From an uncultured bacterium (GTDB taxonomy: Bacteria; DRYD01), in NCBI GenBank assembly GCA_937139605.1, contig CAKZQG010000015.1, positions 1-40,648 on the forward strand: DNA of 40,648 nt, read 5' to 3'. Below, one piece after another: positions 28,652-36,186 of this stretch. The notes beneath the pieces were generated by a model that saw nothing but the letters and a program-made list of their open reading frames with translations, did not search any database and had not been told where the DNA came from. The position numbers and the translations under genes were made by a program. Each line of letters begins with the position of its first letter. Position 1 is the first letter of the stretch.

Positions 28652-28772
28652 TCTTTTACATTTTTAATAAATTATTAATTTTTTTAACAAAATCAAACTA
28701 AAAATTAAATTTTAAAAATTAAATCTATAAATAATAATATCTTTAAAAATTATAAACAGGGGGTTGATATTT

Positions 28773-29735
28773 ATGATTAATTTTAATAGTTTTATAAGTT
28801 TTAGCAGGTTCCAAAACTTTAATTTTAATTCATTTAATAATCTCAATTTATCAATTACCAATATAAATATTCCTAATGATTTATCTAATATTAACCCATT
28901 AATTAATAATTTTAATAATTTTAATAACTTATCAAATTTAATAGGTTCAAATATTGGATTCTTGTTAGGTTCAATGTTAGGTAGTAATTTAGGACTTAAC
29001 TTAGCTAATCAAAACAATATTAATTCCCCTTATCAAAATTTATCAAATAATTCCTTAAATAATACTCTTTTATTAACTCTACTTATGCTATTAATAACTT
29101 TATTAATAAATAATAACAGAACAGGGATTTCAAATATAGGTGGATTTCCTGGTGGTTTTAATAATGGAATTAATGGAGGATTTCCTGGAGGTTTTTCAAA
29201 TGGGTTCCCTAATATGCCAGGATTTCCCAATAGTTTTCCTAACATAGGATCTCCTAATAATACTTTTGGAGGTTTAGGTTCTCCAAATAATCATCAAAAT
29301 AATCCAATAGGAGGAGCTAATCCAATAAAAGGTAACGGTAGCGCTCAAGATTTTGTAAGAATAGCATTATCTCAAACTGGAAAGCAATATATCTTTGGAG
29401 CAGAAGCTAACCCTAATGATTCTAATCCAAGAGCATTTGATTGTTCGGAATTAGTAGAGTGGGCCGTAAAAAGAGCAGGAGGAAATATAGTAGATGGTGC
29501 CGCTAATCAATTTAATTATTGTAGACAACATGGAACAGTTATAAGTGTTCAGCAAGCTTTAAGAACTCCTGGAGCTCTTCTATTTTATAGAGATTTGGGG
29601 CACGTTATGATAAGCTTAGGAGATGGAAGAGTCGTAGAAGCAGGTAATAGTAGGGTTGGTGTTGTAGTAAGACCCGCTAGTGTTCATGGAAATAACATAG
29701 CATATGCAGCATTAGTACCAGGCCTTAGATACTAA
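28773..29735 (+). CDS. NlpC/P60 protein with Asn/Phe/Gly-rich N-terminus
   Basis: Residues about 190-320 form an NlpC/P60 cysteine-peptidase domain: FDCSELVEW with Cys224, and GHVMISLGDGRVVEA with His277. Members cleave peptidoglycan stem peptides or related amide bonds. The first 190 residues are unusual: an Asn/Phe-rich stretch (NFNNFNNLSN), a glycine-leucine patch (IGFLLGSMLGSNLG), one strong hydrophobic segment (LLLTLLMLLITLLI, about 100-113), then a repeat of GGFPGGF-type motifs and Pro/Asn. No signal peptide is apparent, so export would need the internal hydrophobic segment or another route. The start is the ATG at 28773, which has AGGGGG at the right distance. It is monocistronic between dehydrogenase and apt. 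Confidence 0.85.
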   Translation: MINFNSFISFSRFQNFNFNSFNNLNLSITNINIPNDLSNINPLINNFNNFNNLSNLIGSNIGFLLGSMLGSNLGLNLANQNNINSPYQNLSNNSLNNTLLLTLLMLLITLLINNNRTGISNIGGFPGGFNNGINGGFPGGFSNGFPNMPGFPNSFPNIGSPNNTFGGLGSPNNHQNNPIGGANPIKGNGSAQDFVRIALSQTGKQYIFGAEANPNDSNPRAFDCSELVEWAVKRAGGNIVDGAANQFNYCRQHGTVISVQQALRTPGALLFYRDLGHVMISLGDGRVVEAGNSRVGVVVRPASVHGNNIAYAALVPGLRY

Positions 29736-30518: not shown

Positions 30519-31418
30519 GTGAATATAAAAGTAATCCAAAGTGGAAGCAATAGGGAATTTATTTTATTAAAAAACAGCATCCTCTTGATAGACCCAGATA
30601 AAGATAATTTAAAAAAATATATAAAGATCTTATTTTTTCTAAAAAATAAGAAACTAAATGTACCAAAAATTAAAAAAATTTATAATAATTTTGTAATAAT
30701 ACAAAACTTAGGGCAAAAAAGTTTACTTAATTTATTCCTAAAAAGTAAAAAAAATGAAAATAGTATTTCATATATCCAAGAAAAGTACAAATTAATCCTA
30801 AAAGAAATTTCCAAATTATACAAAATAAATATAAAGGAAGAGTATGGAATATTAAAATCAATAGGGATAAAAAATTTTGATTTAAAAACTTTAAAATGGG
30901 AATGGCAATATTTTATAGAAAACTTTTTAATAAATTACAAAGGGTTTTCTAATTTTAAAATTTTTAAATTTTATTTATTATCTGAAGTGTTTATAAATAC
31001 TTGCTATAACGTAATTAAAAGCTTTTCTACATTAATCCATAGGGATTTACAATCTACAAACATTATCTTTTATAAAAATAAACCATATTTAATAGATATC
31101 CAAGGTATAATGATAAGTAATTTTTTATATGATTTAGCTTCATTATTAGAAGATCCTTATATTAATTTACCTTATAAAATAAAAAAAAATTTATTAAATT
31201 ATTTTTTTAAAATTAACTCTCATTTAATACGATTTTGTAAATATTATAATTATTTTAAATTTCAGAGGTTAGTTCAAGTTTTAGGAGCCTTCAGTTATCT
31301 TAGTATCCATAAAAATAAAATATTCTTCATAGATCAATTAAAAAAAATTTCTAACTTATTTCATAATTTAAAACAAGAGAAGGATTATTGGGCTTATCTA
31401 TGGGATTACTTGGAGTAA
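30519..31418 (+). CDS. APH/choline-kinase-fold phosphotransferase
   Basis: Catalytic motifs of the aminoglycoside phosphotransferase superfamily are present: IHRDLQSTNIIF (His174, Asp176, Asn181) and the metal-binding LIDIQG (Asp193). FLYDLASLLEDPYINLP after it closely resembles the AmgK/sugar-kinase branch, which phosphorylates amino sugars such as N-acetylmuramate at the anomeric position. The N-terminal lobe is short and diverged, so substrate assignment is tentative. The start is GTG without a clear SD; the frame has no better candidate. The last 68 bp overlap the 3' end of the convergent PLD gene. It probably shares a transcript with apt. Confidence 0.72.
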   Translation: MNIKVIQSGSNREFILLKNSILLIDPDKDNLKKYIKILFFLKNKKLNVPKIKKIYNNFVIIQNLGQKSLLNLFLKSKKNENSISYIQEKYKLILKEISKLYKINIKEEYGILKSIGIKNFDLKTLKWEWQYFIENFLINYKGFSNFKIFKFYLLSEVFINTCYNVIKSFSTLIHRDLQSTNIIFYKNKPYLIDIQGIMISNFLYDLASLLEDPYINLPYKIKKNLLNYFFKINSHLIRFCKYYNYFKFQRLVQVLGAFSYLSIHKNKIFFIDQLKKISNLFHNLKQEKDYWAYLWDYLE

Positions 31419-32547
31419 AAGGCAAATTGCTTATTGGTTCTAGAGAAGTATTATTTTTCCATACCTCATTAAAAAAAACTTTAGCTTTATTTAGTATTTC
31501 ATTATCATTAGTTATTAATCCAACCTCATGATTTACGTCTAATCCTTTATGAGAAAAATTTCCGCTACCTATTATCACTTCATTATCAACTATCATTAAC
31601 TTCGTATGCAACATATTAAATTCAGTATCGTGATATGAATTAGGTTTAAACCATCTATAACTTATCTTATTTTGCTTTAAAATTTCAGCAGTTTGATAAT
31701 TTGGGTTATCATAAGTATCACTTTTATTTGGATCTAATATAATCTTAATATCAACTCCTCTATTTTTAGCATTTATTAGAAGTTTTATCAAATAAGGATC
31801 AGACAATACAAAAGCAGAAATAAATATATTTTTTTGAGCATTAGAAACAGCTCTATACACTGCAGCTCTATAGCTATCCTTAGGGAAATTTTTATCGGCT
31901 ATTAATAGTGAAGCTTTAGAATTGCCAGCTACTTCTGCTCTTGGTTGATATTCATAATCTTTACCTCCACTTCTTTTAAATAAAAACCAAAACTCTTTTT
32001 CTAAGTCATTAACTACTAGACCTTCTACATATACCCCAGCATCCACATTTTTAAATGCTCTATTACTCCAATTTAAACTAGATATCACTGCTTTCTTACC
32101 ATCTACAACAATATACTTCGCATGCATCAATTGATATTTTATATAATCCTTTAAATTAACTTGACTTTCATTACAGTTTTGTTCTTTATTATTAGATTTT
32201 TCAAGTGGAATAAATGGAAACTCAACTACTTCCACATTGTTACTCTCTAAATAATTAATAATATATTTTTTTAAATTCCAGTCATTAGGAGAAAAATTTG
32301 AAGATAATGGATCAATTACTAATCTTACTTTAACTCCTTCTTTTGCTTTTTTAACTAATAAATTAGCAATTAATGGATTATTAAAAGAAAATTTAGCTAT
32401 ATGTAGTGTATCTTTAGCCTGATTTATAATATCTAATTCTTTTGCAGTTAAATCTTCATTTACAAAAAATTCTACCTTATTCCCATCTTTATAATAATCT
32501 TTATTTATACCATTAAAGTTATTTTTTATTCCTATATTATTTAACAT
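31351..32547 (-). CDS. Phospholipase D-family protein with two HKD motifs
   Basis: Both catalytic H-x-K-x4-D motifs are present: MHAKYIVVDG (His142, Lys144, Asp149) with downstream SSLNWSNR, and LHTKLMIVDN (His314, Lys316, Asp321) with GSGNFSHKG. Two motifs in one chain of 398 residues fit cardiolipin-synthase-like or nuclease-like PLD enzymes. There are no N-terminal membrane helices of the bacterial Cls type and no signal peptide, so a soluble phosphodiesterase or nuclease is equally possible. The start is an ATG preceded by GAAAGGGG. Its 3' end overlaps the APH-fold kinase gene by 68 bp on the other strand. Confidence 0.85.
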   Translation of the reverse strand: MLNNIGIKNNFNGINKDYYKDGNKVEFFVNEDLTAKELDIINQAKDTLHIAKFSFNNPLIANLLVKKAKEGVKVRLVIDPLSSNFSPNDWNLKKYIINYLESNNVEVVEFPFIPLEKSNNKEQNCNESQVNLKDYIKYQLMHAKYIVVDGKKAVISSLNWSNRAFKNVDAGVYVEGLVVNDLEKEFWFLFKRSGGKDYEYQPRAEVAGNSKASLLIADKNFPKDSYRAAVYRAVSNAQKNIFISAFVLSDPYLIKLLINAKNRGVDIKIILDPNKSDTYDNPNYQTAEILKQNKISYRWFKPNSYHDTEFNMLHTKLMIVDNEVIIGSGNFSHKGLDVNHEVGLITNDNEILNKAKVFFNEVWKNNTSLEPISNLPFTPSNPIDKPNNPSLVLNYEIS

Positions 32548-32703: not shown

Positions 32704-33951
32704 TTACATTTTTTGAGAAGGGGCTGCAAAGATATATGAATTAAGTCCAGTAAAGCTAAGAACCATGAATATCTGTCCACCTAAAATTAAAAAACTTAAT
32801 GGCTTTAATAAATTAATATGTATATATCCTGAATGAGCTAATATAAATGAATTTTCCTCTGATGAAACCAAAAATGTATTTATGTTATCCTTTAATTCTA
32901 TTGTCATTACTTTATCTTTTATTATTTCTTTTTTTATTTCCTTTATTTCTTGCCATGTATAATTTCCATTTTTATATACTAATACTTTATCTCCTATTTC
33001 TAGTTTTCCTGCTTTTTTAATAGTATTATTTTCATCTATTATTAAAGGATGATTTGGAGTTAATCTTAATTTAGAACCCTCTGTTATTATTTCTAATATC
33101 TCATATTCTTCTTCATCATGCATATGTATTTTCTCTACTTCTATTTCTTTTAGTTTGTAATTTTCTACAGGATCTATTGTTAATACTATATCCCCTATTT
33201 TTACATCTCCTATTCTCTTTAGCTTATAATTATTATAATCTTTTACCAAAATTAGTGAGGATAATTCGAAACATCCGCCATCACCGCCACCACCACTTGT
33301 AGTAGTTGTTGTCGTTGTAGGTGCTGTTGTTGTTGTAAGTGCTGTTGTCGTTGTAGGTGCTGTTGTTGTTGTAAGTGCTGTTGTCGTTGTAGGTGCTGTT
33401 GTTGTTGGTCTAACTACTGTAAAAGTTCCTACATTTATACTCTCTATTGCATTAAATCCTATAGGTGCTACTTTAAAGGAATTTGCTGTTAAATATATTT
33501 CAAAAGCATTTTTTCTTATTATATTCTTATGTTCATATTCTATTTCCACTTCTACTTTATATAAATTTGTATTATTCATTCTTTGAGGATCTTTTATCCT
33601 TATTGTTATTATTTTGTTATATCTATTATACCCATTTTGATTTATTAAATCAAATATTTCATTAGGGGTATTAGCTTTCATTTTTAAAATATATTGTCCT
33701 TCACTACCTGCTATTGGTTCTAAATAGAAATATTTGCCAGCATTTTGAGTTAGCTCTGTTTTTATAAATATTGAAGCATTTCCTATATCTATTAGTTTTT
33801 GATTTAAATCACTAAACCCAGTTGATCCCCAATATACTATACTATATAACGCCATTATCAATATTAATGCTATCGTAAAGGATATAACTACCTCTATTAT
33901 AGTCATCCCATTCTTTTCTTTCCAATTTTTTTTACTTATTTTATTACTCAT
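32704..33951 (-). CDS. Type IV pilin-like protein fused to a Hint (Hedgehog/intein) domain
   Basis: Residues 12-40 are a class III prepilin signal: KEKNG cleaved before MTIIE, with Glu at mature position 5, then the hydrophobic helix. A pilin-like globular part reaches about residue 180. Residues 182-219 are a Thr linker (TTTAPTTTTALTTTT repeated), followed by GGGGDGG. From Cys227 a Hint fold begins: GGCFELSSLILV, then KLKRIGDVKIGDIVLTID, block B TPNH (Thr298, His301), GDKVLVYKNG, and the C-terminal block NTFLVSSEENSFILAHS (His373, Ser374). A hydrophobic segment (about 380-410) could anchor the C-terminus. Autocatalytic thioester formation at Gly226-Cys227 is expected; the usual terminal Asn is Ser, so cleavage rather than splicing is likely. 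The gene is last in a pilin operon. Confidence 0.85.
   Translation of the reverse strand: MSNKISKKNWKEKNGMTIIEVVISFTIALILIMALYSIVYWGSTGFSDLNQKLIDIGNASIFIKTELTQNAGKYFYLEPIAGSEGQYILKMKANTPNEIFDLINQNGYNRYNKIITIRIKDPQRMNNTNLYKVEVEIEYEHKNIIRKNAFEIYLTANSFKVAPIGFNAIESINVGTFTVVRPTTTAPTTTTALTTTTAPTTTTALTTTTAPTTTTTTTSGGGGDGGCFELSSLILVKDYNNYKLKRIGDVKIGDIVLTIDPVENYKLKEIEVEKIHMHDEEEYEILEIITEGSKLRLTPNHPLIIDENNTIKKAGKLEIGDKVLVYKNGNYTWQEIKEIKKEIIKDKVMTIELKDNINTFLVSSEENSFILAHSGYIHINLLKPLSFLILGGQIFMVLSFTGLNSYIFAAPSQKM
33308..33408 (-). repeat. 36-bp tandem repeat encoding the Thr-rich linker
   Basis: Two perfect 36-bp copies (33308-33343 and 33344-33379) and a 29-bp partial third copy encode TTTTALTTTTAP-type units of 12 residues. 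Because the unit is a multiple of three, slippage would change the length of the pilin-Hint linker without a frameshift. Confidence 0.9.
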
Positions 33952-33992: not shown

Positions 33993-34616
33993 TTACTTAC
34001 TATTAACAGGCACATCTAAATAAAATATTAACCTACTTCTTTGATTCCTAAATAAAAAATCTGTTTTTATGCTTATCCTTATTAAATTTGCATTCCTATT
34101 TTCAAAGTATAATTCACTATTTAATACATTTTCTATTATCCCTAAATTAACTGTACTTTCTATTCTTGTATCACCTGGATCTAATACTAAATCCCTATTA
34201 CTATCTGTATATAATATTTTTCTTACTCTAAATGAATAATCCCTTACGTATCCCTTATTTCTTAATAAATTTCTTTCTATTATCAGATAATTATAATATG
34301 TTTCTATATTTACACTTGGAGGCGTTGAAGAAATTTGATTTATTTTATTTGTTGTAAATCCTATCTCATTATTAGATATTTTAAAAATAGAATCTTGAGA
34401 GCTATTAAAATTAGAATTTTTTATTATCTCATTTGAAAGCTTATTTAATATATTCTTAGTTGTAGATGCTACATAATATTTAGAAGATAACTTTCTCATT
34501 ATAAATGTCATCTTATTTATTGATAATAATAATATCAGCATAATAATTAATGCAATAGACATAGCTATTATCAACTCTGGCAAACTAAATCCCCTCTTTT
34601 TAATAACATTATCCAT
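33993..34616 (-). CDS. Minor pseudopilin (PilW/GspJ-like)
   Basis: The N-terminus KKRGFSLPELIIAMSIALII is a canonical type IV prepilin signal: cleavage after Gly9, Phe at +1, Glu14 at +5. The helix of about 25 hydrophobic residues is followed by a 165-residue globular domain ending in a strand pair, as in minor pilins. Length and position in the cluster fit PilW or GspJ, but no sequence feature decides between pilus and type II secretion. It lies 41 bp before the pilin-Hint gene and 31 bp after the PilX/GspK-like gene. The ATG lies close downstream of AGAGGG. Confidence 0.8.
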   Translation of the reverse strand: MDNVIKKRGFSLPELIIAMSIALIIMLILLLSINKMTFIMRKLSSKYYVASTTKNILNKLSNEIIKNSNFNSSQDSIFKISNNEIGFTTNKINQISSTPPSVNIETYYNYLIIERNLLRNKGYVRDYSFRVRKILYTDSNRDLVLDPGDTRIESTVNLGIIENVLNSELYFENRNANLIRISIKTDFLFRNQRSRLIFYLDVPVNSK

Positions 34617-34647: not shown

Positions 34648-36186
34648 TTAAAATTTTTTTATTTCTTTTGCTAGTATTTGGGTTCTATATATCTTAAGAT
34701 TTGCTATATTGTTTATTTTTTCTACTCTTGGATCTGAATAATAATATTCTGTTGCATTAGTATAAGATATATCTTGATTATTTATTTTTAAGCCATCGTA
34801 TGTTTGAAACGCCCCAAATATGTTAAGTTTAATATTATTAGGAGCATTTATTACGTTTATAGAAGAATTATTATTATAAAATGCAACATAAGCACCAGTT
34901 ATATCTATTAAACTACTATTATTAGCATCTATATCTATATTATCTGCAATAACTCTTATAAAGCTATTAGAATTTTCTGGTAAAGAATGATTTAAAACAT
35001 CATAATCCCAATATCTAAATGGGGTTTTTATTTCAATCCTCTTACCAGGAGCTACAATCACTTGAACATTATTATATAAACTTACAGATGATTCTAAGGT
35101 AACATTATCTAATGCTAATATTATAAACTCTTTTTTAGGAGTTTTTATACTTATATACTTATTATTTAAATCTATTACCTTTGCTATAGCATTAGGATAA
35201 TAATTTAAAATTCTATCTATTCTATTTTGGTAAGTATTAGCTAAATCTAAATCGTTAGTTTCTAAATCTTTATTTGTAGTATAATCAAGAACATAACCAT
35301 TTTCTACGATATTTTGTCCATCAATTGTTATATATTTACTAACAGCAAAGAAATAAGTACTAGCGCTAATATCAATATCTATATACGTTTCAAGTGCCTG
35401 ACCAGGTACCAATGATTTTCTATAAATCTTTACATTTGCTCGTCTTTTTAAAATCAAATCTCCTTCGTTTGTAAAAACTATATCATCGTTAGCATATAAA
35501 TAAGTACCAGGTTTTGGATTCATTGATGAATCTAAATATTTAGCATATAAATTATTATAATAATTCCTATAATAATCAGATATATATTGATTTAATGTTT
35601 GATTTAAATTTGGGATATCTATATCAGTTATTAAATTATTAGTATATTTGGAAAATTCATTGGTATTAATTGGTGTACCATCTGTTTTGATTATATTAGA
35701 ATTAGGTAAAGTTATTAAATTATTAAATATTTTATTTGCATTTACATCTATATAAGAACTATTTGTAGCAATTAATGTGTTGTTATATTGATTATTAGCT
35801 TTAAAAGTAGTAGGATTTCCTACTATTTTATTTATACTCCCTAAATCCACTGAATACAACATAATATACTTTGCATATAAATCATTTGATTTTAATATAT
35901 TTACTAATAGCTTAGATGAATCTATAGGATTTATTTCATATCTATAACCTGTACTGAAAATATTACTATTTCTTTGATTATTTTGTTTATATAGTTCAAC
36001 TGCTGCTATTGCATATGAATCTAACTCTAGGGATTTTTTTATATTTTTAAAAAATTTATTAGAAGTTTTTATATCAGCACTTACATAGTTAAATATTACT
36101 ATACTTGCAGTGGATATAATTAATGTAAATAAAATTAACCATATATACAAACTAAACCCGCTTTTTTTAAATTCACTTTTTACCAT
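34648..36186 (-). CDS. Large pilin-like protein lacking Glu5 (PilX/GspK-like)
   Basis: The start MVKSEFKKSGFSLYIWLILF has the prepilin cleavage site after Gly10 and a hydrophobic helix, but position +5 is Ile, not Glu. Glu5 loss is typical of tip subunits such as GspK or PilX-like proteins. At 512 residues it is large. The ectodomain is Asn/Tyr/Ile-rich and contains beta-repeat stretches (VSLYNNVQVIVAPGKRIEI) similar to pilus assembly PilX_N or filamentous surface proteins. It is the first gene of the three-gene pilin operon, with AGGGGGG as ribosome binding site. It likely caps or initiates the filament formed with the two downstream pilins. Confidence 0.75.
   Translation of the reverse strand: MVKSEFKKSGFSLYIWLILFTLIISTASIVIFNYVSADIKTSNKFFKNIKKSLELDSYAIAAVELYKQNNQRNSNIFSTGYRYEINPIDSSKLLVNILKSNDLYAKYIMLYSVDLGSINKIVGNPTTFKANNQYNNTLIATNSSYIDVNANKIFNNLITLPNSNIIKTDGTPINTNEFSKYTNNLITDIDIPNLNQTLNQYISDYYRNYYNNLYAKYLDSSMNPKPGTYLYANDDIVFTNEGDLILKRRANVKIYRKSLVPGQALETYIDIDISASTYFFAVSKYITIDGQNIVENGYVLDYTTNKDLETNDLDLANTYQNRIDRILNYYPNAIAKVIDLNNKYISIKTPKKEFIILALDNVTLESSVSLYNNVQVIVAPGKRIEIKTPFRYWDYDVLNHSLPENSNSFIRVIADNIDIDANNSSLIDITGAYVAFYNNNSSINVINAPNNIKLNIFGAFQTYDGLKINNQDISYTNATEYYYSDPRVEKINNIANLKIYRTQILAKEIKKF

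Follow-up and report, generated by a model that had tools for sequence, protein, structure and literature searches.

In HINT chemistry, a cysteine at the first position (Cys1) and the TxxH motif support an N–S acyl shift, and C-terminal cleavage does not take place when the terminal Asn is missing. Pilin maturation, as far as it is known, is N-terminal and is carried out by the prepilin peptidase. Among the proteins with a HINT fold, Hedgehog and the inteins have Cys258 and the TXXH motif in common, and Asp303 and Cys400 are peculiar to Hedgehog (PMC9163320). The D303A replacement in Hedgehog blocked the transfer of cholesterol, whereas cleavage with thiols still took place; the D303H protein retains activity (PMC9163320). 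Hedgehog lacks the C-terminal His-Asn end and cleaves at its N-terminal side (PMC9163320); the same is true of the B-type BIL domains, which have Cys1 and TxxH and reside in variable parts of bacterial proteins (PMC7765530).

The window, the whole 40,648-nucleotide stretch of DNA that was analysed, is contig C15 of a MAG of the small hot-spring phylum Calescibacterota (genome G000; 1.88 Mb, 45 contigs). The gene considered here, 32704..33951 including the stop codon, is on the minus strand and encodes a protein of 415 residues in which a pilin is fused to a Hint domain; the plus strand across 32704-33951 is riddled with stops. The preliminary description of this gene, which gave no strand, was correct residue by residue in its domain order and in the residues that it quoted, and the open reading frame lies where it had been placed.

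The prepilin leader (residues 1–15; 33907..33951) ends with KEKNG15 and is followed by M16TIIE20, so that cleavage is predicted at Gly15/Met16 and Glu20 is at position +5. The match to Pfam N_methyl (PF07963; residues 12–36, E 2.4e-4) scored 21.0 bits, 0.2 bits below the cut-off of 21.2 bits, and the orthologue in genome G001, of the same genus, clears this cut-off with 21.4 bits, as well as that of the Hint profile. In the AlphaFold2 model of the full-length protein, a helix (residues 18–69) leads into a four-stranded sheet, with pLDDT of about 70–85 over most of the pilin; the pilin region (33472..33906) thus consists of an N-terminal helix (16–69) and a beta domain (70–160). In the fold search with this model, the top matches were all to the Hint domain and no independent match was obtained for the pilin fold. 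The earlier assignment as a pilin is supported. Of the hallmarks of type IV pilins and pseudopilins, the leader with Gly−1, Glu+5 and the hydrophobic helix are present, and the genome has a prepilin peptidase. The protein shares with type IV minor pilins and T2SS pseudopilins the leader, Glu+5, the order of helix and sheet, and location in a minor-pilin operon; it differs from them in having a long low-complexity linker and a C-terminal autoprocessing domain.

The linker (residues 182–219; 33295..33408) is Thr-rich. The 12-residue repeat noticed earlier corresponds to a perfect 36-bp tandem repeat at 33307-33407 (2.8 copies, 100% match). It is followed by the Gly-rich stretch GGGGDGG (residues 220–226; 33274..33294), which directly precedes the predicted scissile bond. 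The Hint domain (residues 227–376; 32824..33273) matched Pfam Hint (PF01079) over residues 224–342 with 33.9 bits (E 3.2e-8), above the cut-off of 29.7 bits. A hydrophobic tail (residues 377–415; 32707..32823) completes the protein. Its best 19-residue hydropathy is 1.87, and it may be a membrane anchor; the tail helix in the AlphaFold2 model of the Hint region is of low confidence.

The profile search and the structure prediction agree on the Hint domain proposed in the preliminary description. The model has a mean pLDDT of 79, with values of ~90 across most of the core, and its best Foldseek matches were BIL domains, Hedgehog and inteins. In this model, residue 8 is Cys227 and residue 155 is Ser374. 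VIA-align superimposed model residues 8–157 on residues 258–402 of Hedgehog Hh-C17 (1at0) with Z 20.5 and 1.7 Å over 137 residues, and model residues 5–155 on residues −2–139 of the NpuDnaB intein with Z 20.5 and 1.6 Å. The alignment obtained by hhalign against the single Hedgehog sequence (1at0) was shifted and not informative. The hallmarks of the HINT superfamily are all present: the predicted fold, the N-terminal Cys nucleophile (Cys227, codon 33271-33273) and the TxxH of block B, which reads T298-P-N-H301 (codons 33058-33060 for Thr298 and 33049-33051 for His301).

The C-terminal end of the domain is different from that of inteins. The motif LAHS (residues 371–374) ends with His373 (codon 32833-32835) and Ser374 (codon 32830-32832). 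The alignments of the model to several inteins stop at residue 155, that is Ser374, opposite the last residue of the inteins, in agreement with the earlier argument against full splicing. Judged from these alignment ranges rather than from residue pairs, Ser374 seems to stand in place of the terminal Asn of inteins and of Cys400 of Hedgehog. At this place, the other genus has Cys in G002 and Ser in G003. The protein resembles inteins (NpuDnaB, gp41-1 and others) in the fold and the N-terminal active site, and differs from them in that there is no terminal Asn, no true C-extein and no insertion within a conserved protein core. By the criterion that B-type BIL domains have the intein motifs minus the C-terminal His-Asn, the sequence, with His373-Ser374 in place of His-Asn, would be of this type. 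The difference from the described B-type BIL domains is that the host protein here is a minor type IV pilin.

The comparison set consisted of the closest genomes, namely one from the same genus, four from the family and one from the order; those next in distance share the domain only. A search for further pilin-Hint fusions among relatives, as suggested earlier, gave five intact genes of diverged sequence in three genomes: the gene in the window, a second copy in the same genome (G000 C5; L002 1288-2544), G001 C20, G002 C9 and G002 C6. In G003 C61, the parts are the same and the repetitive linker is frameshifted, and in G002 C18 a pilin from a different family is followed by a decayed Hint copy. 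Every convincing Hint domain found in the order comes after a pilin, three minor-pilin families being involved, and searches of the seven genomes with the Hint subfamily and Intein_splicing found no other convincing one. Two weak Intein_splicing matches (G004 C134, E 0.01; G003 C55, E 0.06) were regarded as chance. No Hint match was found in G004, G005 and G006, which are 71–79% complete and in one of which (G005) the orthologue leaves the contig inside a Thr/Pro-rich linker, so that a Hint domain may still be present there; on these incomplete genomes, the module is not obviously essential.

In six homologues from two genera (30–71% identity), Cys1, the Thr and His of TxxH, Lys274, His276 and His278 are invariant. 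The Gly-rich stretch before the Cys is present in five of the six (the window, G001, G002 C9, G002 C6 and G003), and the C5 copy has KK-C, with Lys instead of Gly in front of the Cys. The linkers of the homologues are repetitive and differ in composition. All six have the hydrophobic tail, with peaks of 1.87–2.09 despite sequence divergence. The Hint core is under purifying selection: dN/dS was 0.24 for C15/G001 and 0.21 for C15/C5 (simple NG86 estimates). The tail diverges far faster than the core and retains its hydrophobic peak. A pseudogene or an assembly error is ruled out by the recurrence in three separately assembled genomes together with this selection, and a chance origin of the architecture is excluded, since it recurs in five diverged intact genes and the domain has a predicted Hint fold.

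Clear evidence from the DNA points to copying of the Hint domain as a unit between pilin genes. The pilin of the C5 copy is of a different family, unrelated to that of the window, whereas the Hint parts of the two are 79% identical. At the DNA level, the identity is 85% over 451 bp, a block that corresponds to the Hint domain: it opens with the first base of the Cys227 codon and breaks off inside that of Tyr376. The match between G001 and C5 starts at the identical position and ends at nearly the same one. The dS value between the C15 and C5 modules within one genome (0.50) is lower than that between the C15 orthologues of two species (0.64), which dates the copying to about the time when the species separated, or later; gene conversion would look the same. 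Both pilin families also have members without Hint. Those of the C5 family are in G000 C7, G001 C67, G002 C7, G004 C51 and G005 C123, mostly with Gly/Ser/Thr-rich ends. Such exact copying between unrelated pilins suggests that the domain is used as a cassette. It should be mentioned that, in front of the C5 copy, the gene for the large pilin-like protein (L002 2557-3233) is split into two frames of 83 and 147 residues; the C5 operon might be decaying, or the assembly might be wrong there.

Other pilin ends were observed in these genomes. A disrupted, closely similar duplicate of the pilin in the window (L012 1480-1926; G000 C11, about 62154-62600) is 89–91% identical in DNA in two pieces and has an internal deletion with a frameshift. 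After its Thr-rich linker comes a short Cys/His-rich end, CGYVLPGGYTCARPKGHKGPHAF, and no Hint domain, as though various modules could be attached at the end of the pilin. Minor pilins of one family (L074, L075, L070, L071 and L072) have low-complexity Gly/Ser/Thr/Pro tails ending with SF, SL or GF (KITRSF, TTTITTSF, ESSYSF, GTGSL and GSIGF), which is possibly a C-terminal signal. A related pilin in G004 C96 (L061 751-1401) has a Thr-rich linker, the Gly run GGGSGGGGGGG and then YIKPPQVM, and no Hint domain. It lies ~25 bp from a convergent gene, which leaves no room for a Hint remnant. This end, with the linker, the Gly run and eight residues, resembles the predicted cleaved product of the fusion protein.

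A minor pilin of 207 residues (33993..34616, minus strand; N_methyl E 2.7e-6) directly precedes the gene and is found at the same place in G001. Ahead of this is a large pilin-like protein of 512 residues without Glu+5 (34648..36186, minus strand). A homologue of the latter (30% identity over 266 columns) is located immediately before the pilin-Hint gene in G002 C9, and the gene upstream of the fusion gene in G002 C6 is related to the one in C9. The 512-residue protein is possibly a GspK/PilX-like tip protein, and the occurrence of such a large protein ahead of the fusion gene in both genera suggests a tip-complex operon. The earlier phrase "new way to build or shed a pilus" went too far, since the protein seems to be not the major subunit but a minor pilin, encoded together with other minor pilins in an operon. 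The genome has 20 N_methyl places above the cut-off, one prepilin peptidase, 13 T2SSF domains and two secretins; prepilin peptidase, T2SSF and secretin genes are present in all seven genomes of the order examined. Just downstream of the fusion gene is a gene with two PLD-like domains (31351-32547, minus strand), which adjoins the fusion gene in G001 as well and the 3' end of which overlaps a convergent kinase-like gene (30519-31418). Farther away, an NlpC/P60 protein (28764-29735, plus strand) has an N-terminal half that is Asn-rich and Gly/Pro/Asn-rich; its G001 homologue carries a different repeat there (FGFPNN).

The earlier suggestion that the protein releases itself or becomes attached to a nucleophile would fit this anatomy. 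We favour, with a probability of roughly 55%, a one-sided cleavage at Gly226-Cys227, similar to that of Hedgehog and B-type BIL domains, which would free the minor pilin from a membrane-held Hint domain. The minor pilin (or T2SS-like pseudopilin) would be synthesised as a precursor that ends, on its C-terminal side, with the Hint domain and the hydrophobic tail. It would be inserted into the inner membrane, the leader would be removed at Gly15/Met16, and the Hint domain would probably lie outside the membrane. Cys227, aided by Thr298 and His301, would turn the Gly226-Cys227 bond into a thioester, which would be opened by water or another nucleophile. The pilin would then be released with a flexible, Thr-rich, Gly-ended tail and may join the pilus tip complex; the Hint domain would be left behind on its hydrophobic anchor. 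With Cys1 and TxxH present and the terminal Asn lost, one-sided release is the reaction to be expected, because Ser or Cys replaces the Asn that inteins need for C-terminal cleavage. As the second hydrophobic segment would hold the precursor at both ends, a cut seems to be needed before entry into the pilus; we infer that this segment is in the membrane and the pilin at the tip. The Hint fold, the invariance of Cys1, TxxH, His276 and His278, the Gly-rich stretch, the dN/dS values, the tail, the pilus genes, the L061 end and the N-terminal cleavage by Hedgehog and B-type BIL domains all count for self-release. The Lys before the Cys of the C5 copy, the low-confidence tail helix, the lack of an independent pilin-fold match and the three incomplete genomes without Hint count against it.

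A Hedgehog-like ligation is a tentative alternative. The tail would bring up a specific nucleophile (a lipid alcohol, a glycan or an amine from a second pilin) to attack the Gly226 thioester, and the minor pilin would become covalently attached to it. The domain is above the PF01079 cut-off and has the fold, Cys1 and TxxH of Hedgehog. It also has Ser or Cys at the place of Cys400, and a hydrophobic segment follows it as the sterol recognition region does in Hedgehog. Lys274, His276 and His278 are in the strand near the general base Asp303, so that His is found near a place where the Asp303His protein stays active (PMC9163320); the match to Asp303 relies solely on spacing along the sequence, and His is frequent in this strand of inteins. 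The tail has no detectable likeness to the sterol recognition region, no acceptor is known, and this protein is bacterial. If this doubtful possibility held, there would be a bacterial counterpart of Hedgehog ligation, in which the C-terminus of a minor pilin is joined to a lipid, glycan or protein nucleophile and the tip bears a covalent group, the module being a ready-made 150-residue cassette passed between minor pilins.

C-terminal domains of tip minor pilins often bind surfaces, and the Hint domain might likewise have lost cleavage and act as a folded domain for adhesion or binding at the pilus tip. The linker is suited to display and the C5 copy lacks the Gly before the Cys, but the invariance of Cys1 and TxxH across two genera and the hydrophobic tail, ill-suited to tip display, make this rather unlikely compared with self-release. 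A decayed or selfish intein-like element that sits at pilin gene ends by chance, with no role for the pilin, is very improbable: the copied block does begin exactly at the Cys codon and end within that of Tyr376, and three pilin families carry the module with one copy decayed, but there is no endonuclease part, the position is C-terminal and not in a conserved core, and the module has remained with a single pilin family in two genera, with dN/dS of about 0.2. An ordinary intein is ruled out because the domain is C-terminal and has no terminal Asn, and searches of phages, plasmids and viral contigs gave no match that would indicate such an origin.

Outside the order, no pilin-Hint fusion was found in up to 386 sampled genomes, with a PF01079 scan that first missed the two copies of G000 itself, and a simple pattern test detected no prepilin motif in Hint-bearing frames from other genomes. 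In the scan of 84,980 species, the patterns were specific to the Hint subfamily of the window. Known positives escaped the wide scan, so that the evidence on how the fusion is distributed beyond Calescibacterota is weak. The literature search, which had most subscription journals outside its reach, found no paper joining Hint or BIL domains with pilins. The pilin-Hint fusion is real, conserved and, within the literature searched, unreported. The chemistry is expected to be of a known kind; the apparent novelty is in the protein that hosts the module and in the way the module has been grafted onto several pilins. If the proposed release is true, the building of the type IV pilus or the type II secretion pseudopilus would have a new control point, a self-catalysed step at the C-terminus, and the terminal thioester of a pilus subunit could permit covalent attachment.
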